From: a virus
DNA length: 23,034 nt
Virus record (IMG/VR): IMGVR_UViG_3300032053_000551
Coordinates: 1-23,034 of that record
Direction: 5' to 3' (one strand)
In this document: piece by piece, positions 2,628-22,118 of the stretch
How positions within the stretch are numbered: the stretch's first letter is position 1
Layout: the number at the start of each line of letters is the position of its first letter
The notes under the pieces: model-generated
Told to the model about the DNA's origin: nothing
The model's input: the letters and a program-made list of their open reading frames with translations, nothing else
The model's database searches: none
Made by a program: the position numbers and the translations under genes

Positions 2628-4499
2628 ATGGATCAAGCCGTATTTTTCAAGAGCAAACGTGACTCTGTTTGGCGAGGCAAATACAAAACCCTCGAAGAAT
2701 TCTACAAGAGTGGTGGGAAGATACTTAAACGAGGGGAGGGCAAAAAGAGCCGTCTTCAATATGATCCCGACTACTACACTCTCGACAAGTACGAACTTGA
2801 AATTGATCCTGATGAACCGCTGGAAAACTTCGAGACTTACGATCCATCCCGTCGTCAAAAAGAAATCATCAAGTGTTATAACAGCTTCGCTTATTTCTGC
2901 CACAAATATGTGAAGATTCTTCACCCTATGGACGGTTTGATTCCGTTCGTATTATACAACTATCAGCGGAAGGTTATCCAGGAATACGAAAACCACCGAT
3001 TTAACATCATCAGCAAGTTTCGTCAAGGGGGACTGACGACAGTGACTTTGCTGTGGGGCATGTGGCGCTGCATGTTCCAACTCGACCAACAGATCATGAT
3101 TTTGGGACGAACCGACCGTGATGCCACGGATATTGGCATGATGGTGGATCGTTCTATTGAGAACTTCCCAGAATGGTTGAAGCCAAAGAAAGACGGTAAG
3201 TGGAATGACCACATGAAGATGTTCACGGACACCGGGTCAGCCTTAAAGTTCCACTCTCCTGAAGCTGCTCGTGGTAAGTCCGTTACATTCTTGATCGTGG
3301 ACGAAGCTGCGTTCATTGATGACATGGACAAGCACTGGAAAGCCATGTGGCCTATTCTTTCGACGGGTGGTGGTTGCACCCTCGTATCGACGGTCAATGG
3401 TCTTGGTAACTGGTATGAACAAACCTACCACGAAGCACAAGAAAAGCAAAACCGCTTCAACATCATCGACTTGGATTATTGGGAACATCCCGACTACAAC
3501 GACGATGAGTGGGTTAAAGAACAAAAGGCACAACTCGGCGAGAAGGGCTTCTTGCAGGAAGTGTTGCGTGAGTTCCTTGGCTCCGGTGATACTTACTTCT
3601 CCGCTAAGGTCATCACGCAACTCACAGAGCAAACCAGAAACAATTACCCTAGCCGCAAGTTGTTCCCGAAATGGGTCAACAAGTCAGGCCGTATTGCTGT
3701 ATTGGAAAGCGAAGACCACAACAAGGGTGCTATGTGGGTCTGGAAAGAGCCAATTGATGGCCACGAATACATCATTGGCGCTGACGCTGCCGAAGGCCAG
3801 GGCAACAACAATGACAATTGCTGTTTTCAGGTAATTGACACAGCAACTTTGGAACAAGTGGCCGAGTTTTACTCCAATATCATTGTGCCTCACGAATTCG
3901 CTCAGGTGCTTAATGAAGTGGGCATTTATTACAACAATGCTCTGATTGTTGTCGAAAACATGGGTCCAGGTGGGGCTGTTCTAAGCAACCTTCAATTCAC
4001 CTTGTTTTACGAGAGCCTTTATTACGAAAGCCTTAAATCGGCCAACGTAAAACCGGGCATCAAAATTGGTCAAGTAAACCGATCTCTATATTTGGAATCT
4101 CTCCAAAATCGGCTATTGAACCAAACTGTTCGTATTAACAGTATGCGATTCGTTATGGAACTCCAGACTTTTGAGTACAACCCTGTCACTCGCAAGGCTG
4201 AAGCTCAGAAAGGCAAGCACGACGACGCTATTATGTCTATGTGTATGGCCCTTTATGTTCGTGATTCCATGTTGCGAGACATACCTATGGGTGCAGAGAT
4301 TCCGAAAGAAGTAACGGCCACGCTAAAAGCTCAGGTATACGAAGAAATCAAACGTGAATTGATGGAAGGAAGACCAGAAGATTTCCTCATGGACGATGAA
4401 ATAGACCTTTTATCGCCCGACAAAGATACTGTTATGCCCGGTGTTATTTTCAATATCGAGCGTCGGAACGATAGACTTTTGCGTGAATTCGGATGGTAA
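2628..4499 (+). CDS. terL: Phage terminase large subunit (ATPase and nuclease)
   Basis: DNA-packaging motor of 623 residues. ATPase domain: deviant Walker A SKFRQGGLTTVT (~129-140), where the usual P-loop Lys position of T4 gp17 (SRQLGKTT) is Leu136 and basic residues K130 and R132 lie upstream; Walker B FLIVDEAAF (~221-229, D225 E226); coupling motif STVNG (~254-258). The nuclease is RNase H-fold: D385 (GADAAEG), E443 (VVENMGPGG) and D532-D533 (KHDDAIMS). ATG 2628 has AAAAGGA five nt upstream. The gene leads a plus-strand run diverging from the M28 gene and is followed 24 nt later by a homing-type nuclease, a common association for terminase genes. No small terminase subunit or portal is recognisable nearby. 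The family identification is firm; substitutions in Walker A of this kind occur in other phage terminases. Confidence 0.96.
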   Translation: MDQAVFFKSKRDSVWRGKYKTLEEFYKSGGKILKRGEGKKSRLQYDPDYYTLDKYELEIDPDEPLENFETYDPSRRQKEIIKCYNSFAYFCHKYVKILHPMDGLIPFVLYNYQRKVIQEYENHRFNIISKFRQGGLTTVTLLWGMWRCMFQLDQQIMILGRTDRDATDIGMMVDRSIENFPEWLKPKKDGKWNDHMKMFTDTGSALKFHSPEAARGKSVTFLIVDEAAFIDDMDKHWKAMWPILSTGGGCTLVSTVNGLGNWYEQTYHEAQEKQNRFNIIDLDYWEHPDYNDDEWVKEQKAQLGEKGFLQEVLREFLGSGDTYFSAKVITQLTEQTRNNYPSRKLFPKWVNKSGRIAVLESEDHNKGAMWVWKEPIDGHEYIIGADAAEGQGNNNDNCCFQVIDTATLEQVAEFYSNIIVPHEFAQVLNEVGIYYNNALIVVENMGPGGAVLSNLQFTLFYESLYYESLKSANVKPGIKIGQVNRSLYLESLQNRLLNQTVRINSMRFVMELQTFEYNPVTRKAEAQKGKHDDAIMSMCMALYVRDSMLRDIPMGAEIPKEVTATLKAQVYEEIKRELMEGRPEDFLMDDEIDLLSPDKDTVMPGVIFNIERRNDRLLREFGW

Positions 4500-8125: not shown

Positions 8126-9025
8126 ATGTTCAAATTATCTTGTATTTTTGTCTTGTTGGTTAGTTTCCTGGCCCCATTTGTCAGCGGTGAAACACCCTCT
8201 GTGTATTCATACGATGCACTAGACAATATGCCGATTATGGAGCGTCGGCCTACTGGTTTTGCAGGCATGGCTCCAGTCGAGCAACGTGGTCCAGAGTTCC
8301 GTAAGTTTCTCGCTGCATCTGTCAAAATCAGCGTGGGCGGCGGGTCTGGTTCTGGAACCATTGTTTATTACGATGCAGCTAAAAATCTCGCTTACGTTGC
8401 ATCTTGCGGGCATATGTGGAGTCAAGGAACTATGTCCGCAGAAGAAGGCAAGCGTCGAAATATGACTTGCAAAATCATCACTTGGTATCATAACGAAAAG
8501 AAGCTGGATGCTCCCAAGAGTTACAATGCCAATGTAACATTCTATAGCTATATCAGCGGTCAGGACACATCACTTGTGACTTTTACTCCAGATTGGCAAC
8601 CTGAGTATTTCCCCATTGCTCCTGTGAACTACGAGTACAAGGCTGGTCGCCATGCTCACTCATTGGGATGTGATGGTGGCAATGAAGTTGCTCATTATGA
8701 CATCGAAATGTTTGGACTTGGCGGCGGGGATTTGGTTACGAATCAAAATAGCCCACGCCCAGGACGTTCTGGTGGTGGGCTGATGGATGATGACGGATAC
8801 TATATTGCGACTTGCTGGGGAACCCAATATCGTGATGGTAGTGGCAAAGGATTCTTTACTCCTTTATCTGCCATTCACGGATATTGGAACAAGCAAAGTG
8901 GATATGAGTTCTTGTTGAGCCAGAAGCCGGGCGGCACAGCAGCACGCCAGATTCCTGTCAAAGACCGCAGTGGTACACAAGGCACATACACGCCAGAATA
9001 TATTTTGCTTCCGGGTGGACGTTAA
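8126..9025 (+). CDS. Exported trypsin-like serine protease
   Basis: 299-residue protease of the chymotrypsin fold. A clear Sec signal peptide covers residues 1-21 (Lys3, hydrophobic core, cleavage near VSG). The triad is visible: H96 in VASCGHMW (equivalent to the TAAHC region), D147 in QDTSLVTF, and S215 in GRSGGGLMDDDG, with GSGSGTIVYY forming the strand before the His. After the domain comes a ~40-residue low-complexity tail. ATG 8126 follows AAGGAG by about 6 nt. The next gene starts inside its stop (TAATG), so the two are coupled. The product should act outside the cytoplasm of the host or on the virion surface. A secreted trypsin-like enzyme is unusual in phages; the target is unknown. 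Confidence 0.88.
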   Translation: MFKLSCIFVLLVSFLAPFVSGETPSVYSYDALDNMPIMERRPTGFAGMAPVEQRGPEFRKFLAASVKISVGGGSGSGTIVYYDAAKNLAYVASCGHMWSQGTMSAEEGKRRNMTCKIITWYHNEKKLDAPKSYNANVTFYSYISGQDTSLVTFTPDWQPEYFPIAPVNYEYKAGRHAHSLGCDGGNEVAHYDIEMFGLGGGDLVTNQNSPRPGRSGGGLMDDDGYYIATCWGTQYRDGSGKGFFTPLSAIHGYWNKQSGYEFLLSQKPGGTAARQIPVKDRSGTQGTYTPEYILLPGGR

Positions 9026-9669
9026 TGTTGAAAGTTGAAAAAAAACATTACTATATCCGATTTGGACTTGGAGATCGGTGGGCTTCTATTTCTTATCTTC
9101 TCAGAAAATCACAAGAAAAAGGGCGTCCAGTTTTCATTGATGGCGACGCCGACTCAGGACATCTTTACGAATTGGCTAGTTATTTTGATACAACTGGCCA
9201 ACTCATTTATGAGAAGGGTCGGTCAATATTGCCAATGAATTACCATGAGGCTTTTTCAACAAAATATCTTCCAACAAAAAAGACCTGGAGAGATACAAAT
9301 AGCAAAGTTGTGGCATACCAATTTGATGGCTTTTCGTCATTCTGGGATAAAAATCCATCTGATAAAGAAATAACCGAATTCCTGAACTATCTCACTTCCC
9401 GTGGGTTTACGTCGGTAGATTTAGGACACATGAAGCCATTACCTTACATCATCGAAACATTGACCACATGCAAATTCTTCGTTGGATGTGCAAGCGGCAT
9501 AGGTCACATCAGCATGAGTGTCAATACGCCTATGTACATTATTCTGCACAATCTGCCAGAAGGTGGCCCGCCACCTTATGGCGCAGAATATCAAAGAACA
9601 GTTTACAGCAGCAAACCAGATGTTCAATTCTTCAAATACTTAAAGGACTTGATGAACCATTTAGGTTAA
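9025..9669 (+). CDS. GT-B-fold sugar transferase-like protein (GT9-like)
   Basis: 214-residue protein with the look of the C-terminal half of an ADP-heptose-type (GT9) transferase: after a Rossmann-like N-terminus (GLGDR) comes FVGCASGIGHISMSVNTP, matching the family's conserved pocket in which a Gly/Ser-rich turn and a His bind the nucleotide sugar, followed by a strand (MYIILHNLP). It is shorter than typical GT9 enzymes (about 320-350). It overlaps the protease stop by TAATG. The C-terminal end overlaps the convergent PD-(D/E)XK gene by nine bases. It may add sugars to DNA, virion proteins or host surface glycans; the acceptor cannot be read from sequence. Confidence 0.75.
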   Translation: MLKVEKKHYYIRFGLGDRWASISYLLRKSQEKGRPVFIDGDADSGHLYELASYFDTTGQLIYEKGRSILPMNYHEAFSTKYLPTKKTWRDTNSKVVAYQFDGFSSFWDKNPSDKEITEFLNYLTSRGFTSVDLGHMKPLPYIIETLTTCKFFVGCASGIGHISMSVNTPMYIILHNLPEGGPPPYGAEYQRTVYSSKPDVQFFKYLKDLMNHLG

Positions 9670-10506: not shown

Positions 10507-11556
10507 ATGGCTGTTGACTTCAATAAATTCGTGAAATGGGCAAAGGCCCGCTTTGGCGAGGATAATATTCTCGTCAAAGGTAAAGAAGTACGCATCAACA
10601 GCATATTCGACAAAGGCGACGATGATTTCCACCTTTGGTGTTCGCCCACAGGCGGAAAGAAGAAGCGAAAAGGAGGCGTTTACCACTGCTTTAAGACCGA
10701 CCAGAAAGGCAGTTTGATAAAGCTGGTTCAGATTGTTGACAGTTGCGACAGAGAAGACGCACTGACAACGCTGGATGGCCGAACCAGCATTCGAGACTTG
10801 GAGAAGCAACTTGAGGATATGTTCGCCGATCCGGTCGAACAGGAACCAATAGTTCCCAAGCCAGACTTGCAATTGCCATTGGGATGCGAACTGATCTCTG
10901 CCCTTGGCACCAATAACTGGTGGCGAAAGAAGGCAGAAGAATACCTTACAAACCGGCATCTCCCAATTGATGGGCTGTATATCTGCACAGAAGACAGATA
11001 CAAAGCCAGAATAATCATTCCCTATTACGACCGTAGCAAAAAGCTCGTGTATTGGAATGGTCGGCATATTGGAAAGTCTAAATGCAAGTATCTCGGTCCA
11101 CCTAAAGAGGTTGGCGTGGGCAAAGAAGACGTTGTATTCATGGCAGGCTCTTGGCCGAGTGCCGGTGCCACTGTCTATCTTTGTGAAGGCGAATTCAATG
11201 CAATCAGCTTGTCTCTCTGCGATCTGAATGCCGCCGCTTGTGGTGGAAAAAACATGAGTGAAAAGCAAGCTCTAATGCTCACAGATTACAAAATTGTATT
11301 GTGTCTGGACCGGGACAAGGCCGGTAAGCAAGGCACCACGAAGATGACTTCTATGATTTCTTCGGTGGAAACTGTCAAGGGAAATGAAAAACTAAAATTC
11401 GTGATCCCACCGCCAGGATATAATGATTGGAACGAAATGTTGGTCAAATTAGGGGCAGCAGTTCTCCATCACTATATCCAAAAAAACCAGCGGCCACTAG
11501 ACTATTCTTGGCCTCATGGAACTCATGCAAGTTATGTCAAGGATTTACTCGGTTAA
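10507..11556 (+). CDS. DnaG-type Toprim primase
   Basis: 349-residue primase that should make RNA primers at the phage fork. An N-terminal basic zinc-type region holds WCSP (C45) and VYHCF (H60, C61); the ligand set looks reduced compared with the CHC2 finger. The Toprim domain follows: E227 in LCEGEFNA, then D268-x-D270 in VLCLDRDKAG, the acidic triad of DnaG enzymes. YNDWNEML (~305-312) is the family's downstream motif in a phage-type primase. A GAGGG ribosome site precedes ATG 10507. The next gene begins three bases after the stop. There is no helicase domain, so it should work with a separate helicase outside the window. Confidence 0.9.
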   Translation: MAVDFNKFVKWAKARFGEDNILVKGKEVRINSIFDKGDDDFHLWCSPTGGKKKRKGGVYHCFKTDQKGSLIKLVQIVDSCDREDALTTLDGRTSIRDLEKQLEDMFADPVEQEPIVPKPDLQLPLGCELISALGTNNWWRKKAEEYLTNRHLPIDGLYICTEDRYKARIIIPYYDRSKKLVYWNGRHIGKSKCKYLGPPKEVGVGKEDVVFMAGSWPSAGATVYLCEGEFNAISLSLCDLNAAACGGKNMSEKQALMLTDYKIVLCLDRDKAGKQGTTKMTSMISSVETVKGNEKLKFVIPPPGYNDWNEMLVKLGAAVLHHYIQKNQRPLDYSWPHGTHASYVKDLLG

Positions 11557-11559
11557 GTT

Positions 11560-11973
11560 ATGAAAGCACTTACAGTCAAAAAACTCCAGGAAGCATTCGT
11601 GGGTAAGGTATGCACCATACTCACTTCTACCGTTGCCAAGACGGACTTCCAGGACCAGCAATTCTCCGACTTCTTTACGGCAATTATTGAGTCTTTGGAT
11701 GAAGATGGCATCTTCGCCAAGCACCACATGACAGGATGCCGCAATTACTATACTTGGACACACATCATAGGCGTTCTTGAAGAACAAGTGATTCAACAAG
11801 ATGACCCTAAGTATGAAGAAATCATGCAAGAGATTAAAAAGGCACCTGTTGAGCGTCAACAGAATATTGTGCCTGTTGATCCTAATGCTTCCCTTTTTGT
11901 AGACCCTGAAATGATGGCATCCCTGGCACGACAAGCTAAGGAAGCCCAAGGAAAAATGTTGAGGAAACAATAA
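11560..11973 (+). CDS. Unknown 137-aa protein between primase and GlpX
   Basis: Not recognised. 137 residues, helical and acidic, with an unusual His/aromatic stretch in the middle (AKHHMTGCRNYYTWTH) and a C-terminal charged helix (ASLARQAKEAQGKMLRKQ). No classic domain or signal peptide. The start lies three bases after the primase stop with no clear ribosome site, so it is probably read by coupling. Its TAA overlaps the GlpX ATG (TAATG). Its place could suggest a replication accessory factor, but nothing in the sequence proves this. Confidence 0.7.
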   Translation: MKALTVKKLQEAFVGKVCTILTSTVAKTDFQDQQFSDFFTAIIESLDEDGIFAKHHMTGCRNYYTWTHIIGVLEEQVIQQDDPKYEEIMQEIKKAPVERQQNIVPVDPNASLFVDPEMMASLARQAKEAQGKMLRKQ

Positions 11974-12914
11974 TGCGTAACAATATGGATTTGATCCGTG
12001 TAACTGAAGCTGCTGCAATCGCTGCCGCAGCCTGGGTGGGCAGTGGTAAGAAACTCGAAGCTGATTTGGCCGCTACTAACGCCATGCGTGACAGACTTGA
12101 TCGCATGGATGTTGCAGGGACAGTCCAGATTGGAGAAGGCAAAAAGGACCAAAGCTATGGTCTGTTCAAAGGCGATCTAGTCGGACGTGGCTGGCACCAC
12201 AATGAAGACGGCGAAATCATTATGTGGGATCAAAACACCAAGGAAGTAGACATTGCGCTCGACCCTATTGACGGAACAACGCCCACAGTAACGTCAGGAC
12301 CAGAAGCCATGAGTGTCATTGCTATGGCCGATAAAGGAGCCATGTATGACACAGATGAGCATTACATGCTTAAACTGGCTGTCAGTGGCGATGTAGCCCG
12401 TAGAACCAATCTTTGTCTTAGCACGCCATTGCCTGTATTGTGCAAACAAGTTGCTGAAGTCTTGAATAAGCCTGTGGACAAATTGATGGTTTGCATTCTT
12501 AATCGTCCACGTCATGAAGAATACATTGCCCAAATGAGAGAACTAGGAGTCAGAATTAAACTGATCCAGGACTGCGACATCTCTGGTGCAATCGCTGCTG
12601 CCGATGGTGGAAATATTGATATGCAGTTTGGTGTAGGTGGCGCACCTGAAGCTGTTGTTACAGCGGCTGCGGTCAAGTGTTTGAGAGGATTCTTCTTGGC
12701 CCAAGTTTGGGACAAAGATGTGGGTCTAAAGGGAGACACCTTCTCCCATGATGACTTGGTGAGAAGTCACTGTTGTTTTGCTGCCACCGGCATTACCGAT
12801 GGCAGTCTATTGAAGGGAGTTTCTGTTAACTCTCGTGGTCCCACAACTCACAGTGTCATTATGCGATCTGAAAGTGGCACAGTCCGCTGGGTTCAAGCCA
12901 GACACGGCAATTGA
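11973..12914 (+). CDS. glpX: Class II fructose-1,6-bisphosphatase (GlpX)
   Basis: 313-residue GlpX phosphatase, which removes the 1-phosphate of fructose-1,6-bisphosphate (some members also act on sedoheptulose-1,7-bisphosphate). The entire family signature is present: RVTEAAAIAAAAW at the start, K27 and D31 (GKKLEADLAATNAMR), E55 in QIGEGKK, D97-P-I-D-G-T, RPRHEEYI, DCDISGAI, GGAPE (E226) and the ATGITDGSLLKGV end. Against E. coli GlpX, K29, D33, E57, D85 and E213 are kept; E88 of DPIEGT is Asp, and GEGExDE is GEGKKDQ. The segment before the last domain is shorter. The ATG overlaps the previous stop. Active-site residues suggest a working enzyme with altered surface. It may feed fructose-6-phosphate to nucleotide or sugar synthesis. 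Confidence 0.95.
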   Translation: MRNNMDLIRVTEAAAIAAAAWVGSGKKLEADLAATNAMRDRLDRMDVAGTVQIGEGKKDQSYGLFKGDLVGRGWHHNEDGEIIMWDQNTKEVDIALDPIDGTTPTVTSGPEAMSVIAMADKGAMYDTDEHYMLKLAVSGDVARRTNLCLSTPLPVLCKQVAEVLNKPVDKLMVCILNRPRHEEYIAQMRELGVRIKLIQDCDISGAIAAADGGNIDMQFGVGGAPEAVVTAAAVKCLRGFFLAQVWDKDVGLKGDTFSHDDLVRSHCCFAATGITDGSLLKGVSVNSRGPTTHSVIMRSESGTVRWVQARHGN

Positions 12915-12989: not shown

Positions 12990-13301
12990 TTATTTACTCA
13001 TTTCGCCCTTCCATTCATAATCGGCACCGTCAATTTTGGCGGTGCCTGTTAGTTTATCGGGAGGACCGATAAACTTCACTTCGTAGTCGAATTTAACGCC
13101 CATCCAGATTCCATAGAAGCGACCTTTCCATTTGTCGCCTCCCAGGTCTGTAACTTCGGCAGTCATAATGCCGTCGAGTTTTCTATTGGTCGTAATCCAC
13201 TCACCTTCATAAACGAACTGAGCGGCTACAGTCGGATGGATTGTGGATGTCGTCGTTGCCAATACTGTCATTAGCAAAAAAGCTGCAAATGCACTTTTCA
13301 T
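12990..13301 (-). CDS. Small exported beta-rich protein, 3' end cut by an in-frame stop
   Basis: 103 residues with a Sec signal peptide (Lys2, hydrophobic core, likely cleavage after TVAA). The mature part is a compact beta pattern: FVYEGEW, GIMTAEVTDLGGDKWKGRF, GVKFDYEVKF, then LTGTAKIDGADYEWKGE. I recall similar small proteins in planctomycete genomes; this is memory, not a search. The frame ends in AAA-TAA, yet sense coding resumes in the same frame for 24 more codons (12915-12989). ATG 13301 abuts the TAG of the 670-aa gene, with AAAGG seven nt upstream. Either the stop is a recent mutation, or the shorter form is functional, or readthrough gives a longer form. A sequencing error cannot be excluded. 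Confidence 0.72.
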   Translation of the reverse strand: MKSAFAAFLLMTVLATTTSTIHPTVAAQFVYEGEWITTNRKLDGIMTAEVTDLGGDKWKGRFYGIWMGVKFDYEVKFIGPPDKLTGTAKIDGADYEWKGEMSK

Positions 13302-15314
13302 CTATCGCCTTTTTTGAAGTTGTTCTTTGAAATACTGCGTTCTCTCTGTGAACGAAAGCATTTCAATCTTCTTTTGTTCTACTAAAGGCTGTGGCACGCC
13401 TTTGCGTTCATGAAGACGCTGCTTATAGAAGTTCTTCAAATCTGTTACAGTCCACTCGAATTCAACATTGGCATGTTTTTTATAGGATGTGTGAACATTC
13501 TCGGCTTCGACCAAATCGTTTTCGAGTGCAGCAAGGTCTGCTCGATCCTTTATTTTATCTAATTTTTCTAGTAATGCTTCTTTTGTCTTTCCATTCGACA
13601 ACACTTCAATACGGTCCCTCAGTCTTGTCTTTTCACCCGACAATGTTTTAATACGGCCCTTCAGTCCCTTTTGTCTGACAGGCTTTTCTTCTGGCGTCGG
13701 ATTAGGAATGGCCTCAGCACCATCCATGCCCGCAACTCTGGTCTTTGGATCAGGCGGTGCATCTGTAGGCGTGTCGTCGCCCTTGTGCATAGGCTCGCTC
13801 AATCCAGAACCATCTCCAGTGAACTTCTTCACTTCAGGCACTTCATCGCCAATACTTCCCACACGGCCCCTCAAAGAAGGCTTGGCGAGAAGCAAAGCAC
13901 CGTTACGGTCCCTCAAAGAAGGCTTGGCTGGCTCAGGGGTTGGCATTGTAGGGGCTGGATCGACCATAGGTGCAGTCTTTGGTGCTTCAGTCTCACCGCC
14001 TGCCATAGCTGCGTCACGAGCCGCATCAACGTCCGAAGGGGCCGTTGAACGAGGCATCCTTCTACGAGCTTGTTCCGTGGCAGCTTTCGCTTTTTCTACT
14101 CTAGCAAGAAGTTCTGACACGCTTTTTATTGGAGACTCATGGTGTTCCCAGCGATCTGATTTGTGCATCTCTCTATGCCAATGCGATCCGCTTTTTGCCC
14201 CTGCGCAATTTTTGCTAATTGGCAACTTTTTATTTTCTTGAGCGTCTAGGATTTCTCTTCGTGGATCACCAATTCGCAAAATCCAAGGCATATTTTTTAT
14301 TCCGTGATCTTTATCTAAGCAGCCATCAATTTTTGACGAACCCTGATGTGCTTGTCCACCACCATATCTGTTCCATCTCTTCATTTCATCAGGAGTAAGT
14401 TCACTCCACTTCTTTCCAGTGGTAGGTGGAGTAAAAAACATTCCATGCTCGGAATCGGCTGGGGAAGCTGCATCTGGGGAAGCTGCATCTGGAGAAGCTG
14501 CATCTGGAGACGCCGAAGGTCCAGAAACAGGAGCTTTTTCAAAGCGTTCCCAATCATCAGCGGCTTTTTGTCTGATTGAATTTTTTTTGCTTTTGAGTCT
14601 GTCGATTAAATCCTGGGCTGTTTTTATATCCATTTTTTTGGATTTTGCCCAACCTTCTACAACCTTGACTAAATCCAAAAATCCACCTGGGACTTTAGAA
14701 TCCTGTTCTTCCTCTTGAGGAGCCGCTGATGCAGGTTCTTCTGGTGTTCCCATTGAAGCAGCAGGCACTTCAGGTGTTCCCATTGAAGCAGCAGCAGACA
14801 TAGGAGAACTGTCCTCTGCACCACCCACAATAGACATGAGCTTTTGCTTGAGTTCTTGCGCCTTTGTGTCGATCATGCGCACCAAACGTAGATTCTCGGC
14901 ACCAGCAGGAACATCTTCGTTGAGTTGTTCTTCTAGTGATTCGCAGATGTCTCGAAGAGACTTATAATCGGCTAAAGAGAGACTGTTGGGATTGAAAGAT
15001 TCCTGAGTAGCACCCAGGTCGTCGCCGAGCTTGTTTTGCCAGAAATATGGGTTGGTTTGGTTGTAACGACCGTGCCACATATTGGACATAGTGTTCTTAA
15101 AACGGTCCCATACACCCCGACGTTGCGCAAGTGGCGTCATCGGGTTCATAAGGGTCCGCTTTAAGTCAGAAACCCAAGCATCAACGATTTGATTGACTTG
15201 TTTTTGGATATTTGCAGCCCTCTCGTGTTTTAACACGTATTCAGGCTGAACTCCAGTTTCAACGTCAGGTGTGGCTTCTGTAAGCCTATTGCGATATTCT
15301 TTGAATCCCAGCAT
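13302..15314 (-). CDS. Large low-complexity phage protein with capsid-targeting-like start
   Basis: 670 residues, not matched to a known family. Segments: an N-terminal tag-like MLGFKEYRNRLTEA; a helical region (~30-165); Ala/Pro/Glu-rich linkers with AASMGTPE (two copies) and SPDAA (three copies); a central compact segment with Trp, His and Cys (~290-395, GRYN-type text such as NRYGGGQAHQGSSKIDGCL and SGSHWHREMH) that could be a small enzyme or metal domain; then more linkers and four KxLRxR-like motifs (SLRDR, SLRGR, GLKGR, RLRDR) before a charged C-terminal helix. ATG 15314 follows AAGGAG by six nt. It may be an internal head protein or carry packaged cargo, from tag and disorder; this is inference. 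Confidence 0.82.
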   Translation of the reverse strand: MLGFKEYRNRLTEATPDVETGVQPEYVLKHERAANIQKQVNQIVDAWVSDLKRTLMNPMTPLAQRRGVWDRFKNTMSNMWHGRYNQTNPYFWQNKLGDDLGATQESFNPNSLSLADYKSLRDICESLEEQLNEDVPAGAENLRLVRMIDTKAQELKQKLMSIVGGAEDSSPMSAAASMGTPEVPAASMGTPEEPASAAPQEEEQDSKVPGGFLDLVKVVEGWAKSKKMDIKTAQDLIDRLKSKKNSIRQKAADDWERFEKAPVSGPSASPDAASPDAASPDAASPADSEHGMFFTPPTTGKKWSELTPDEMKRWNRYGGGQAHQGSSKIDGCLDKDHGIKNMPWILRIGDPRREILDAQENKKLPISKNCAGAKSGSHWHREMHKSDRWEHHESPIKSVSELLARVEKAKAATEQARRRMPRSTAPSDVDAARDAAMAGGETEAPKTAPMVDPAPTMPTPEPAKPSLRDRNGALLLAKPSLRGRVGSIGDEVPEVKKFTGDGSGLSEPMHKGDDTPTDAPPDPKTRVAGMDGAEAIPNPTPEEKPVRQKGLKGRIKTLSGEKTRLRDRIEVLSNGKTKEALLEKLDKIKDRADLAALENDLVEAENVHTSYKKHANVEFEWTVTDLKNFYKQRLHERKGVPQPLVEQKKIEMLSFTERTQYFKEQLQKRR
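13869..13928. repeat. 18-base direct repeat inside the 670-aa gene
   Basis: Two identical copies of an 18-mer (CCTCAAAGAAGGCTTGGC) start at 13869 and 13911. On the minus strand each encodes AKPSLR, followed by GR or DR. It points to local duplication of a short basic motif. Confidence 0.75.
14464..14508. repeat. Three 15-base tandem repeats encoding SPDAA
   Basis: Three contiguous copies of GAAGCTGCATCTGGR (14464-14478, 14479-14493, 14494-14508). The unit keeps the reading frame and encodes Ser-Pro-Asp-Ala-Ala linkers on the minus strand, a likely slippage-prone site. Confidence 0.85.
14743..14794. repeat. Two 22-base direct repeats encoding AASMGTP
   Basis: The 22-mer beginning GGTGTTCCCATTGAAG occurs at 14743-14764 and 14773-14794, 30 bases apart and in frame, giving two AASMGTPE copies in the linker of the 670-aa protein. 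Confidence 0.8.
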
Positions 15315-15347: not shown

Positions 15348-15806
15348 TTAGTTATGATCGCTAACGTATTCACCAATCTTTTTTAGGGACATTAGGCAAG
15401 AATCGAATCGGTGATAGTCGCTGGAAATGTAATCCAGGGCGATTTCATCGAATTTGTCCGAAATCTCATCTTCTACTTCAAAGTAGATTGCTTTGCCTTT
15501 CTTCCCGACAACCTTGTACTTGTGCATGAGAATGTAAGCGGCAGCGCCCAAATCCGTTACGAATCGGTGATTCCTCGTCTCGAAGTTGTATTCGCCGATC
15601 TTCTTCAGCGACATGATGCAGGCATCAAATCGGTGAAACTCACTTGATAAGTAATCAAGGGTTAATTGGTCAAATTTCTCAGACGTATGGTCTTCAGTGA
15701 GCAAGAAGTAAATATCCTTGCCTCGACGACCAATAACCTTGATGTCGTGCATCAACAAGTATGCTGCGGCTCCAAGGTCGCTAACACTCTTCTGATTCTT
15801 TTTCAT
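15348..15806 (-). CDS. Duplicated DUF5659-like protein
   Basis: 152 residues formed by two copies of one ~65-residue domain (residues ~8-73 and ~83-147). By eye about 42 of 65 positions agree, including DLGAAAY, the MHxxKV strand, GK-x-IYF, LDY, HRFD and MSLKKIGEY. The pattern (AAYLLM-helix, KVIG strand, IYF strand, C-terminal helix) resembles DUF5659, a small domain frequent in phages and mobile DNA. I chose ATG 15806 (AAAGG seven nt upstream); a longer frame from 15866 runs through a hairpin and lacks a ribosome site. It lies 3' of the actin-like cluster. Function unknown. Confidence 0.8.
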   Translation of the reverse strand: MKKNQKSVSDLGAAAYLLMHDIKVIGRRGKDIYFLLTEDHTSEKFDQLTLDYLSSEFHRFDACIMSLKKIGEYNFETRNHRFVTDLGAAAYILMHKYKVVGKKGKAIYFEVEDEISDKFDEIALDYISSDYHRFDSCLMSLKKIGEYVSDHN

Positions 15807-15830
15807 TTCTAGCCTTTCTCTTTCTGTAAA

Positions 15831-15855
15831 TCCCGCACCCAAATTGGATGCGGGA
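15831..15855 (-). terminator. Intergenic hairpin, weak terminator or processing site
   Basis: An inverted repeat (TCCCGCA, one mismatch, three more pairs, 3-base loop) sits between the 15871-16782 stop and the next ATG. On the minus strand it is followed by only ATTTAC, so it lacks a real U-tract. It may attenuate or stabilise the transcript between two genes of the cluster. Confidence 0.35.
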
Positions 15856-15870
15856 TAGGGTTGCATCTTC

Positions 15871-16804: not shown

Positions 16805-17809
16805 TTACTTTGCTGCTTCCGCTGCCAGCAGACAGCCACGAGCAACACTGTATAACGGATCACTTGGCTTAATGATCTCGCCGATTTGAATAGGCAAATC
16901 AGCCTGCTGAATCGTTTCCTTAAAGATGGTAGCAAAACCATAAGGAGAAGAGGTTCCACCAGCAATTACCACGTCAACCGGAGCGTCGGCACGAACCGAT
17001 TTGGTAATGTCTGCAAAACCCTTCTTGATACCCTGTACGGTATGTTCTATCATCAGCCTGTATTGAGTATGAATGGCTCGTTCCACCAACGAGGCAGGAG
17101 CCTTAGTCAAGTCAATCTTCGTCTTTTCTCTATTGATGAAAGAAATCGACTCGCCCGTGGCCTTAGCAGCCTGACGGTCGATCCAATCTCCTGAGTTGAC
17201 AATCGAAAAAGCGAAAACAGGATTGCCATACATCGCATAGCATAGGTTAACCATGCCAGCACCAAAGCTCACGCCAATACCAGTGAAAGCCTTCTTGCCA
17301 AGTTCTGCATAGACCAGGGCTAGGGCTTCATTGATTGGGTGTGCATCCACCTTGCGACCCGTCTCATCCTTGTATGCCTTGAAGATGGCTTCAAGGATTC
17401 TCTGGTGATAATCGGCGTCTGTATCTTCATTGATGGCGTTGGCTGGTACGCAGTAGTACAACACTTCGCCGTCTTTTGTAAGGCCGTCAATCAATGAGTG
17501 CATCATGATCGACATAATCTGGAATGCGTCTTTTTCTTTTGGATTAACGCATCCGTGAATCATGGGCCGCTTCAGTTCAAGCTGGCTCATTGTGTAAGTC
17601 ATATTGCAAGCCGCCTCGCCCAATGCGTAGGCCACCTTGTCTCGTTCAATCAACGGGACGCCTGCCGTCTTCATCATGTTGAATACGAAACGATTGTCTA
17701 ACGGGAGTTCCAAGAAAGCATTGACTTCTCTCTTGTATACAAAATCTCCCTTGCTGTCCCTGTGGCAGCAGACCAAATTAAATGTTCCACAATCAAAACC
17801 GATTGGCAT
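16805..17809 (-). CDS. Actin/Hsp70-superfamily ATPase (ParM/MreB-like)
   Basis: 334-residue actin-fold ATPase. Phosphate-1: GFDCGTFNLV (~4-13, D6). Connect-1: INEALALVY (~159-167). Phosphate-2: GVSFGAGMVN (~179-188), where the usual first Asp of DxGxGT is Ser181. Adenosine motif: VVIAGGTSSPYGF (~280-292). Length and lack of a substrate domain favour a ParM/MreB-like filament former over a full Hsp70 chaperone, but FtsA- or chaperone-like roles remain possible. GGAG seven nt before ATG 17809 lies at the end of the 76-aa gene. Phage actins move DNA or segregate genomes in known cases (for example AlpC); the same role here is inference. Confidence 0.85.
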   Translation of the reverse strand: MPIGFDCGTFNLVCCHRDSKGDFVYKREVNAFLELPLDNRFVFNMMKTAGVPLIERDKVAYALGEAACNMTYTMSQLELKRPMIHGCVNPKEKDAFQIMSIMMHSLIDGLTKDGEVLYYCVPANAINEDTDADYHQRILEAIFKAYKDETGRKVDAHPINEALALVYAELGKKAFTGIGVSFGAGMVNLCYAMYGNPVFAFSIVNSGDWIDRQAAKATGESISFINREKTKIDLTKAPASLVERAIHTQYRLMIEHTVQGIKKGFADITKSVRADAPVDVVIAGGTSSPYGFATIFKETIQQADLPIQIGEIIKPSDPLYSVARGCLLAAEAAK

Positions 17810-18078: not shown

Positions 18079-19065
18079 TTAAGCTAGTGATATGCGATTT
18101 TTTCCATATGGCCATCGTTCAAACATTGTTCTGATCCCCGTCTGTAATTCCTCTCGACTTAGCTCGGTCAAGCAGGGTTTTTGAGCTTTATTACACTTTG
18201 GACAATCACCGAATTTGAAGCACGGCCCGCAATCCCAATTGCCATTGTCACGGTGTTTTTGAACTAATACGAAGTTAAAATGCTTCCCGTAAGCCTTTCC
18301 ATCTGCAAAGGTGAAGATGCCCACGAGCGGCTTTTTAAGTCCTCCAGCCATATGGAAGGTTGCAGTATCAACAGATACGACATAATCTGCCACTGCTATG
18401 TATGCCATCCACTCTTTGATGGTAGCCCCGTATATCCCTGGGATGCCCAGTCGTGTAAGGTCTGCTATCTCTTTGTTATGTAGTCCAACCAAATTGCAAT
18501 CTTTTGTGGCCTCAACGACAGCCTCAATTTGAGACGGCATTAAAGTCTTCACGGCCATTTTTGAGACTGGCGCAAATAACACGGTTGGTTTGTTCGTGTC
18601 TGGAGCAATAACTCTTAACTTCTTGCGACAGTATTCCAGAAACGCTGGGTTGAATCGAAACTGCATTTCATGTTTGTTTAACGTGACACCACAGTATTTG
18701 GCCCATATATCCGCTCTGTGTTCTAGGCACATTGGCGCATTTAGGTTTTCATATCTATCTGCAATTGAGACGCAGGTGTTGTAATGATTGATGTAGTCGT
18801 TGATGTTCACTGTTCTGGAATCAACTACTTCACTAAGACAGGGATGGTCTTTGGCGGCATCCATGTATTCTGGTAAACAAGCAAAAATCAAATCGGCTTC
18901 TGGACATATGGCTTTGAAGTCGGCGAATAGCATTCGTTGCATTAAAACATCGCCCAATCCTCCTTTGTCGTGCCATATGAGGATTCGATTTCGTTTGGCA
19001 TAGAAGTCTCTAAGGCTCAGTGGCTTAGGCTTATAAACGGCGGCTGGTTTACGAAGATGTCCCAT
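18079..19065 (-). CDS. GT9 (ADP-heptose-type) glycosyltransferase-like protein
   Basis: 328 residues, full-length for the heptosyltransferase family. GGLGDVLMQR (~35-44) is the N-terminal loop after strand 1; VSVDTATFHMAGGLKKPLVG (~230-249) is the conserved nucleotide-sugar pocket with D233 and H238. A Cys cluster near the end (C279, C282, C288, C291, C298) may bind zinc, as in some family members. ATG 19065 has no strong ribosome site. It follows the terminator behind the 19139 gene, so it may have its own promoter. It likely modifies a surface glycan or a phage component; donor and acceptor unknown. Confidence 0.87.
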   Translation of the reverse strand: MGHLRKPAAVYKPKPLSLRDFYAKRNRILIWHDKGGLGDVLMQRMLFADFKAICPEADLIFACLPEYMDAAKDHPCLSEVVDSRTVNINDYINHYNTCVSIADRYENLNAPMCLEHRADIWAKYCGVTLNKHEMQFRFNPAFLEYCRKKLRVIAPDTNKPTVLFAPVSKMAVKTLMPSQIEAVVEATKDCNLVGLHNKEIADLTRLGIPGIYGATIKEWMAYIAVADYVVSVDTATFHMAGGLKKPLVGIFTFADGKAYGKHFNFVLVQKHRDNGNWDCGPCFKFGDCPKCNKAQKPCLTELSREELQTGIRTMFERWPYGKNRISLA

Positions 19066-20960: not shown

Positions 20961-21268
20961 TCTTCTCGTTTGACATACATTCGATGTATGATGAAAGAGC
21001 CACTGTCAACTTCAATTAGAACATTGTGTCCATTTGCATCTGCAATGGTGCCGCCATTCTTCTTGAAGTCTCTGGCCACTTCTTCAATTTCGCCGTCTTG
21101 AGTTTCAATGCGAGAGAGAAGTCGCTTAAATGCGACCTTGGACTCTACTTGTAAGCCAATCATGTTTGGTTTTGATTTAGCATCTTGCTGATTATCCATC
21201 CACTTCTTAAAATCACTGAAGTTAAATGGTCCGAAGGGATCACCCTTTTCGTCAATCCGTTTGTTCAT
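20957..21268 (-). CDS. Unknown 103-aa protein
   Basis: Not recognised. Soluble, charged, with FSDFKKWMDNQQ near the start and an EEVARDFKKNGGTI helix-turn followed by strands (HNVLIEVDSGSFIIHRMYV). ATG 21268 follows GGAAATA; a TTG at 21277 is in frame. It overlaps the end of the upstream gene by 17 bases and the 3' end of the convergent gene by four. It may act with the DUF115-like neighbour, but nothing shows this. Confidence 0.72.
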   Translation of the reverse strand: MNKRIDEKGDPFGPFNFSDFKKWMDNQQDAKSKPNMIGLQVESKVAFKRLLSRIETQDGEIEEVARDFKKNGGTIADANGHNVLIEVDSGSFIIHRMYVKRED

Positions 21269-22118
21269 TATTTCCAACCCCGAAGAAGGATAAGATTTTA
21301 CCTTCTTCTAAATATGTAGCATTTGTGTAGTTTGGTCCGCTTGAGCAATCGCCTGTTAAGACTTCTTGATATTTCTGGCTCCCCAGCCAGTATAAATTGC
21401 CATCAATTAAACCATGCGAAACCTCGTGCTGTGGATACATCCACAGCCCGTTTTCCAACTTTACTGCCCCTGGCCGTTCATCCTTGAACGAATCATCACA
21501 GCAAAACAACATCAGTCGTTCCACTCCGAATCGGTAGGCCAATCCTATGGCCGCACATACTGGATTGCGATAATCGTCCACTTGCCATTGCACTTCTTTC
21601 GCACCAAGCGTGGTGTAGCTCTGTTCGCCTACAGGATAGTACCTCATCTTGGTCCCTCTGTAGTTTCTCAGAAACTCATGGTTGACTCTAGGTGATGCTA
21701 TGCACTTTGGTAAAACCTTTCCCCGTCTTGGCAAGTACCTCATGCACTCGTCATACGGATTGTTAACCACATAATAGTTAATGTTTCTGTTTGCAATTTC
21801 CCATTTTGCCAATGAACCATTCACGCCAATTATGGTTATATTTTTTGGTAATTGACCAAGAATCTTTTGCTTCTCTTTGAACCCGTAACCATCCGATACA
21901 ATCACAACATCAGGATGGTGCGTTTGTTCTGAGTCAATCCATTGATTTCTCTGAAAACCATTTTGAACTTCGTTTTGAAGAAATGCAAAATGATCTTTAG
22001 CATCAATGGTGTTATTGATGTCAACGTATGGAACATTATTGACAATGAAATTACGGACCCACTTGTTTTGTGTAGTCAATAAATATTGATTGCCATTGGA
22101 ATGTTTTTTGATTCTCAT
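21252..22118 (-). CDS. DUF115/MAF-like Rossmann protein
   Basis: 288 residues with text resembling the DUF115 (MptE/MAF) family: DVVIVSDGYGFKEK then NITIIGVNGSLAKW and NINYYVVNNPYDECMRYLP, a Rossmann-like order in which a Gly-rich turn follows strand 1 and a conserved Asn/Gly segment follows strand 2. Later VCAAIGLAYRFGVERLMLF fits a core helix and strand. Members act on sugars or pterins or are linked to surface-glycan modification. The start overlaps the stop of the cryptic frame upstream (ATGA). Substrate unknown; identification is moderate. Confidence 0.7.
   Translation of the reverse strand: MRIKKHSNGNQYLLTTQNKWVRNFIVNNVPYVDINNTIDAKDHFAFLQNEVQNGFQRNQWIDSEQTHHPDVVIVSDGYGFKEKQKILGQLPKNITIIGVNGSLAKWEIANRNINYYVVNNPYDECMRYLPRRGKVLPKCIASPRVNHEFLRNYRGTKMRYYPVGEQSYTTLGAKEVQWQVDDYRNPVCAAIGLAYRFGVERLMLFCCDDSFKDERPGAVKLENGLWMYPQHEVSHGLIDGNLYWLGSQKYQEVLTGDCSSGPNYTNATYLEEGKILSFFGVGNNEQTD

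Follow-up and report, generated by a model that had tools for sequence, protein, structure and literature searches.

The window, by which is meant the whole stretch of DNA analysed here, is a 23,034-base IMG/VR virus record, and its contig is thus a 23-kb fragment. At its centre is an open reading frame on the plus strand (11973-12914) which encodes 313 amino acids, starts with ATG and has no internal stops. The features that surround this gene are listed below in the order in which they occur.

2628-4499, plus strand: T4-type large terminase subunit (Pfam PF03237; PHROG 2, E 5e-45; 53% identical to that of the 595-kb phage LR756511)
9661-10437, minus strand: PD-(D/E)XK exonuclease at the left edge of the conserved block, oriented away from the primase (Pfam PF12705, E 2e-28; synteny)
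10507-11556, plus strand: DNA primase (Toprim, DnaG-like), which heads a co-directional set (Pfam PF13155, E 3e-11; PHROG 47, E 7e-34)
11560-11973, plus strand: o11560, conserved phage protein of 137 aa, function not assigned (no Pfam match; syntenic homologues)
11973-12914, plus strand: GlpX-type class II fructose-1,6-bisphosphatase (FBPase), 313 aa (GEG-K57, DPIDGT102, R178-P-R180, I198-Q-D-C-D202, E226)
12990-13301, minus strand: 103-aa reading frame convergent with GlpX, with a hydrophobic N-terminus that looks signal-peptide-like by eye (also found in L002 and L003, the closest two relatives)
13302-15314, minus strand: o13302, phage protein that evolves fast and contains proline/acid-rich repeats (relatives have a convergent counterpart beside GlpX, LR756511 has one beside o11560)
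15348-15866, minus strand: o15348, conserved phage protein with two LGAAAYxxMHxYxxxGxxGK repeats (synteny)
16805-17809, minus strand: actin homologue of the volactin type, by which this huge-phage clade can be recognised (Pfam PF25216, E 1e-68; in synteny throughout the clade)
18079-19065, minus strand: GT9-family glycosyltransferase (Pfam PF01075, 33.5 bits against a cut-off of 22; syntenic)

Because it carries the terminase, the primase and the exonuclease, the contig is that of a phage. GlpX is the third gene of the co-directional set, in which o11560 follows the end of the primase (11556) after 3 nt, and the TAA stop of o11560 (11971-11973) overlaps the ATG of GlpX (11973-11975). The TAATG arrangement near the primase that was described in a sequence-only reading of this DNA is therefore confirmed, and the overlap suggests that o11560 and GlpX are translated together. 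Scans for consensus promoters and terminators returned nothing decisive. As regards timing, GlpX would be co-expressed with the replication genes. The same reading had seen several sugar-transferase genes in the window; one of these is clear, the GT9 gene (18079-19065), while a second GT9 match (9025-9669) and an MptE-like match (21252-22118) both fall below the cut-off. On the far side of the terminase, a ferritin-like protein and an M28-family peptidase (974-2578) adjoin it, and a ferritin-like gene also adjoins the terminase in the contigs L243, L247 and L248.

The GlpX protein matches the Pfam family FBPase_glpX (PF03320) over its full length, covering profile positions 4-307 of 307 with a score of 310.6 bits (cut-off 27; E 1.2e-92). 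Against the narrower NCBIfam equivalog TIGR00330 it scores 236.8 bits, which is below the cut-off of 259.3 bits, and since the shortfall is small the protein is regarded as a divergent member of the family. An AlphaFold2 model built from 13 related sequences (pLDDT 88) was compared with the PDB, and the top 24 matches are all class II FBPases or dual FBPase/SBPases, with TM-scores (query) of 0.82-0.89; the best is the M. tuberculosis FBPase II structure 7txb, at 0.87/0.89. The dN/dS ratio between the window gene and three close relatives is 0.03-0.043, and among close phages 0.03-0.045 (Nei-Gojobori; in pairs further apart, synonymous sites are largely saturated), and purifying selection of this strength indicates that it is the protein for which the gene is maintained. 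The window gene is accordingly a real and intact class II FBPase gene carried by a phage, as had first been claimed, and it is under selection.

The GlpX locus across huge phages

Relatives in IMG/VR, including contigs of 223 kb and 532 kb, hold GlpX at the same place, and the gene order exonuclease-primase-o11560-GlpX-(o13302)-o15348-volactin is met again in contigs as long as 532 kb. A wider scan yields 35 viral GlpX loci, among which nine contigs of up to 341 kb present the order (exonuclease)-(primase)-o11560-GlpX-o15348-(o15871)-volactin-o17813-GT9-o19139, one of them starting at o11560. In the wider-scan contigs whose neighbours were read, an o13302-like convergent gene lies between GlpX and o15348. 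Terminase genes are found in 7 of 20 further GlpX contigs. The identity of the GlpX proteins to that of the window (89, 82, 65, 63, 57, 55, 52 and 46%) falls in parallel with that of the primase, the exonuclease and volactin.

The phage closest to the window in its terminase (53%) and its volactin (65%) is the 595-kb uncultured phage LR756511, which has the same gene order around the locus but differs in having no GlpX: its counterparts of o11560 and o13302 overlap directly, and no GlpX match at E 1e-5 is found anywhere in its sequence. A backbone tree built from five markers places LR756511 inside the clade, as sister to GlpX-bearing phages (100/100 support), and because of this position a loss of GlpX in LR756511 is the simplest reading. 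GlpX thus looks like an inherited, standard part of these huge phages as opposed to a recent theft from a host. With respect to the marks of a viral auxiliary metabolic gene, the phage contig is genuine and the flanks are phage genes, but the gene is syntenic and old in the clade, where a recent acquisition from a host would be expected.

The usual view of auxiliary metabolic genes is that they are host genes, sporadic in occurrence and recent. The central-carbon enzyme at this locus behaves as an inherited phage gene, with a fixed place by the primase, purifying selection, divergence parallel to that of its neighbours and occasional loss.

Several local variations in the neighbourhood were also noted. 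In L027-L029, three extra co-directional genes lie between o11560 and GlpX, the first with hydrophobic stretches that look membrane-protein-like by eye. In L020 (6913-8004), L230 (5014-6117) and L237 (5589-6686), GlpX is beside or near a gene for a saccharopine-dehydrogenase-like oxidoreductase, and two of these three neighbourhoods, which make up a second recurrent setting of the gene, contain a MazG-like gene (L020, Pfam-confirmed; L237, by eye). The best match in the phage collection, MT837112, is an unverified record, and it was treated as contamination because its other genes (of oxidoreductase and Nudix-like kinds) read as actinobacterial.

Active-site motifs and substrate

In the structural study of the Francisella enzyme (PMC10289334), the key GlpX residues are E57, a DPxE/DGT motif containing the nucleophilic Thr, and RPR, and the motif IxDGD, which binds the furanose hydroxyls and is critical for ring binding, is described as strictly conserved. 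In the window protein, the metal site M1 (Glu57; Asp-Pro-x-Asp/Glu) and the Thr nucleophile are represented by E55, D97-P-I-D100 and T102, and the Arg/Lys-Pro-Arg anchor of the 6-phosphate by R178-P-R180. When 10 phage proteins, 10 from Omnitrophota and 30 others are aligned, the metal site, the nucleophile and the 6-phosphate anchor prove to be kept in all 20 phage and Omnitrophota proteins (with D or E at position 100). The furanose motif is IQDCD in the window protein, which retains both Asp residues but departs from strict IxDGD, and for this reason the protein is classed as a GlpX variant.

Since the published active-site residues are kept, IxDGD excepted, the window protein looks catalytically competent, with ring binding in question; that the catalytic residues are preserved had already been recognised from the letters alone. 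Decay of the active site is ruled out by the preservation of these residues together with the low dN/dS. The enzyme would convert fructose-1,6-bisphosphate (FBP) to fructose-6-phosphate (F6P), and might also accept sedoheptulose-1,7-bisphosphate. E55 and D97-P-I-D100 would hold Mn or Mg, T102 would carry out the attack, R178 and R180 would bind the 6-phosphate, and the ring would be bound by D200-C-D202.

Three substitutions separate the phage and Omnitrophota proteins from the 30 others (positions in E. coli numbering). The Gly-to-Cys change in the ring motif (G187C) is present in 20 of the 20, and all 30 others have Gly; M92P, which puts a Pro two residues past the Thr nucleophile, is likewise present in 20 of 20 and none of 30; and E59K, which turns GEGE into GEGK, occurs in 19 of 20 and none of 30. 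Most of the other GlpX proteins from viruses bear this signature too, at times with GEGI instead of GEGK. In fold, in length, and in E55/D97/D100, T102, the RPR anchor and E226, the window protein resembles the GlpX proteins of E. coli, M. tuberculosis and F. tularensis (PF03320). It differs from these cellular proteins in being phage-borne, in its GEGK, IxDCD and DGTxP motifs, in a longer loop between GEG and DPI and a shorter C-terminal loop, and in scoring below the TIGR00330 cut-off.

The motif changes reported in the sequence-only reading require revision on this basis. GEGKKDQ, with GEGK for GEGE, is a real change, whereas DPIDGT is ordinary and not an alteration, because wild-type M. 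tuberculosis FBPase II (6ayy) has DPIDGT and 6 of the 30 cellular comparison proteins share the D at this Asp/Glu site. The most unusual change, from IxDGD to IQDCD, had been overlooked. The shortened segment exists in the C-terminal loop, which is about 10 residues shorter than in M. tuberculosis and more so relative to E. coli; the GEG-DPI loop, on the other hand, is about 14 residues longer. The picture of a host gene whose motifs were altered by the phage is not supported; the differences define an old subfamily.

Because the Gly-to-Cys change falls in a ring-binding motif that has been called strictly conserved, the substrate or the rate may differ from those of other GlpX enzymes. It is therefore necessary to consider that the Cys-variant subfamily (IxDCD, GEGK, DGT-T/R-P) may belong to a pathway specific to phages and act chiefly on a substrate other than FBP, for instance sedoheptulose-1,7-bisphosphate or a different phosphosugar. 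The near-complete separation of G187C, E59K and M92P between the two sets of sequences, the recurrence of the signature in other viral GlpX proteins and the role of the changed motif in binding furanose hydroxyls (PMC10289334) are all consistent with such a shift, as is the saccharopine-dehydrogenase-like gene which takes the place of GlmS near GlpX in L020, L230 and L237. The metal, nucleophile and 6-phosphate-anchor residues are nevertheless unchanged, both Asp residues of the ring motif are kept, and the adjacency of GlmS in five contigs, described below, fits the production of F6P, so that a changed substrate is judged unlikely, though it deserves serious attention. The Cys variant offers a single-residue test of substrate choice.

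A separate GlpX-like protein in a Rhodospirillaceae genome (L033, 3001-3912) has GEGKKDE, but LPLEGP stands where DPxEGT would be; it lacks the Thr nucleophile and is possibly inactive or of other function; the same genome contains a second GlpX match.

GlmS and the use of fructose-6-phosphate

In five sister contigs (L027-L030 and L150), a GlmS gene adjoins GlpX tail-to-tail, at a distance of one to a few bases except in L027, where the gap is about 1.2 kb and contains an HNH-type gene. The GlmS proteins of L027-L030 match TIGR01135 with about 550 bits. GlmS converts F6P and glutamine to glucosamine-6-phosphate (GlcN6P), and because it consumes F6P the pair reads as a route from FBP through F6P to GlcN6P, which makes it a concrete and testable path by which host FBP could reach phage glycans. 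The distant GlpX phage G008 also has a GlmS-like gene, which scores under the family cut-off. No full-length GlmS was found in the window contig or in the covered parts of G002, G004, G006 and G007, and none over the cut-off in 20 other GlpX contigs. The link is therefore lineage-specific, and GlmS was rejected as a general partner of GlpX.

Searches of five large contigs (G002, G004, G006, G007 and G008) with E. coli reference enzymes recovered only a nucleotidyltransferase, an SDR-like protein, rfbC, prs, a weak glf match and the GlmS-like gene of G008. The nucleotidyltransferase is RfbA-like and occurs in G002, G004 and G006. With single-sequence E. coli queries, and in contigs that are possibly incomplete, talB, tktA, rpiA, fbaA, pfkA, zwf and gnd were not detected in any of the five, so the possibility of other carbon genes elsewhere in these genomes is not borne out for upper glycolysis or the pentose phosphate pathway.

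These results bear unequally on the two uses of F6P, nucleotides and glycans, that had been proposed at the outset. The glycan branch gains independent support from the F6P-consuming GlmS beside GlpX in sister phages, and on the best available evidence, which consists of gene content and adjacency, an amino-sugar or glycan role is the best supported reading of product use. The nucleotide branch, in which F6P would pass through the non-oxidative pentose phosphate pathway to PRPP for DNA synthesis, would be consistent with the co-directional arrangement of GlpX with the primase and with a prs-like gene, which is present only in the 532-kb contig G006 (77860-78927). The absence of detected pentose phosphate and upper glycolytic enzymes in the five large contigs leaves this branch without specific support, however, and the prs-like gene may serve NAD salvage, since G006 also has a NAMPT-like gene; a primary role in nucleotide supply is accordingly quite improbable. 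The NAMPT-like genes lie near the RfbA-like nucleotidyltransferase in both G002 (L117, 10181-11602) and G006 (L103, 17572-18954), and together with the prs-like gene they could form an NAD-restoring pathway of the NARP type as opposed to one for nucleotide synthesis.

The interpretation that we consider probable is that the window gene encodes an active class II FBPase of a virus-dominated subfamily, that a clade of huge tailed phages has inherited it as a near-core gene, and that its F6P is directed mainly to amino sugars. The flux would bypass host control of this gluconeogenic step and would pass mainly into amino-sugar and sugar-nucleotide synthesis (through GlmS, then GlcN6P and UDP-GlcNAc) and secondarily into host pathways. 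The GT9 gene that belongs to the conserved block and the RfbA-like genes in G002, G004 and G006 are counted in favour of this interpretation; the Gly-to-Cys change in the ring motif, the patchy distribution of GlmS, the missed TIGR00330 cut-off and the 23-kb length of the fragment are counted against it.

Origin and relation to described viral genes

The phylogeny of the window protein with bacterial GlpX covers cellular sequences from Omnitrophota, Pseudomonadota and plasmid-bearing species only. In a tree of 67 rows, the Cys-variant proteins form one clade with 100/100 support, made up of 22 viral and 10 Omnitrophota rows, and the Omnitrophota rows are a single branch within the viral diversity. 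The AU test rejects a tree in which the viral Cys-variant rows are all kept separate from Omnitrophota (p = 0.0055), a result which is only suggestive because the group was named after the tree had been seen and because several deep forks have support of 85-91. Within this limited cellular sampling, the nesting suggests a transfer of GlpX from phages into Omnitrophota. Complete GlpX genes are found in about 10 of about 190 sampled Omnitrophota genomes, all in the Cys-variant subfamily by the rows examined. It is possible, but tentative, that a Cys-variant (IxDCD) FBPase evolved within huge phages, is near-core in a deep clade, pushes host carbon into amino sugars together with GlmS, and was passed to Omnitrophota as the only complete GlpX detected in their sampled genomes. 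Should the bacterial copies prove to be of phage origin, the gene would have moved against the direction normally assumed, and these uncultured phages would have a candidate host in Omnitrophota.

The opposite history, in which the phage recently took an auxiliary gene from its bacterial host and altered it, is the picture given by the sequence-only reading. In agreement with it, the nearest cellular relatives of the window protein are from Omnitrophota MAGs, at about 52-55% identity, and within the window, clear similarity at the DNA level to 384 Omnitrophota genomes is confined to GlpX (BLASTN with 20 kb of the window gives matches below E 1e-4 only inside GlpX). Yet no cellular GlpX above about 55% identity turned up in the phyla searched, the locus is syntenic in deep relatives across the clade, GlpX diverges in parallel with its neighbours, and the Omnitrophota copies are nested among viral ones. 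A recent acquisition is rejected on the synteny and the trees and must be regarded as very improbable, and descent within the phage clade is the preferred history. An alignment- and motif-based scan of 84,980 genomes gave three loci, which narrows the room for other cellular holders of the gene, though some may exist; a single-protein scan of genome contigs with the window GlpX gave nothing.

Omnitrophota are not established as the host. Between the window and the Omnitrophota genomes no spacer-like match stood out, the best exact runs being 24 nt, and the phage GlmS proteins are 35-43% identical to Omnitrophota GlmS over full-length matches. Fragmentary GlpX-like matches also occur in Omnitrophota (G138, G067, G049, G123, G149 and others) within frames of about 1,000 to 13,400 aa, separate from the complete GlpX genes.

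Viral glpX is already in print. The available parts of two reports, on viromes of contaminated soil (PMC12615777) and a trench (PMC12448302), describe the presence and abundance of an auxiliary class II FBPase gene on viral contigs, and that of PMC12713726 lists viral glpX as not validated. Relative to those parts, the new points here are a syntenic locus shared across the clade, a subfamily marked by the Cys variant, GlmS as a neighbour, and Omnitrophota copies nested among viral ones. In rumen viral contigs, fbp and tpi have been read as supplying nucleotide precursors (PMC5704599), which likewise proposes an F6P-producing step as the benefit to the phage, but without a viral gene that consumes F6P, such as the GlmS of the sister phages. 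The pentose phosphate genes of cyanophages (talC, zwf, gnd, cp12) are also central-carbon genes on large T4-type phages, but they represent other enzymes and another pathway, of which talB, zwf and gnd were not detected here. The text of Al-Shayeb 2020 (PMC7162821) mentions neither LR756511 nor fructose, and no description of an FBPase gene in a huge or jumbo phage was found in the openly readable literature, a coverage that largely leaves out subscription journals.

A second group of viral GlpX proteins (L219-L225, on contigs of up to 163 kb) has the canonical motifs GEGELDE, DPLEGT and ISDGDV and sits with Pseudomonadota in the tree, and these two properties identify it as an independent acquisition. 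In the two contigs of this group that were read closely, GlpX is followed by an uncharacterised gene of about 660 aa.
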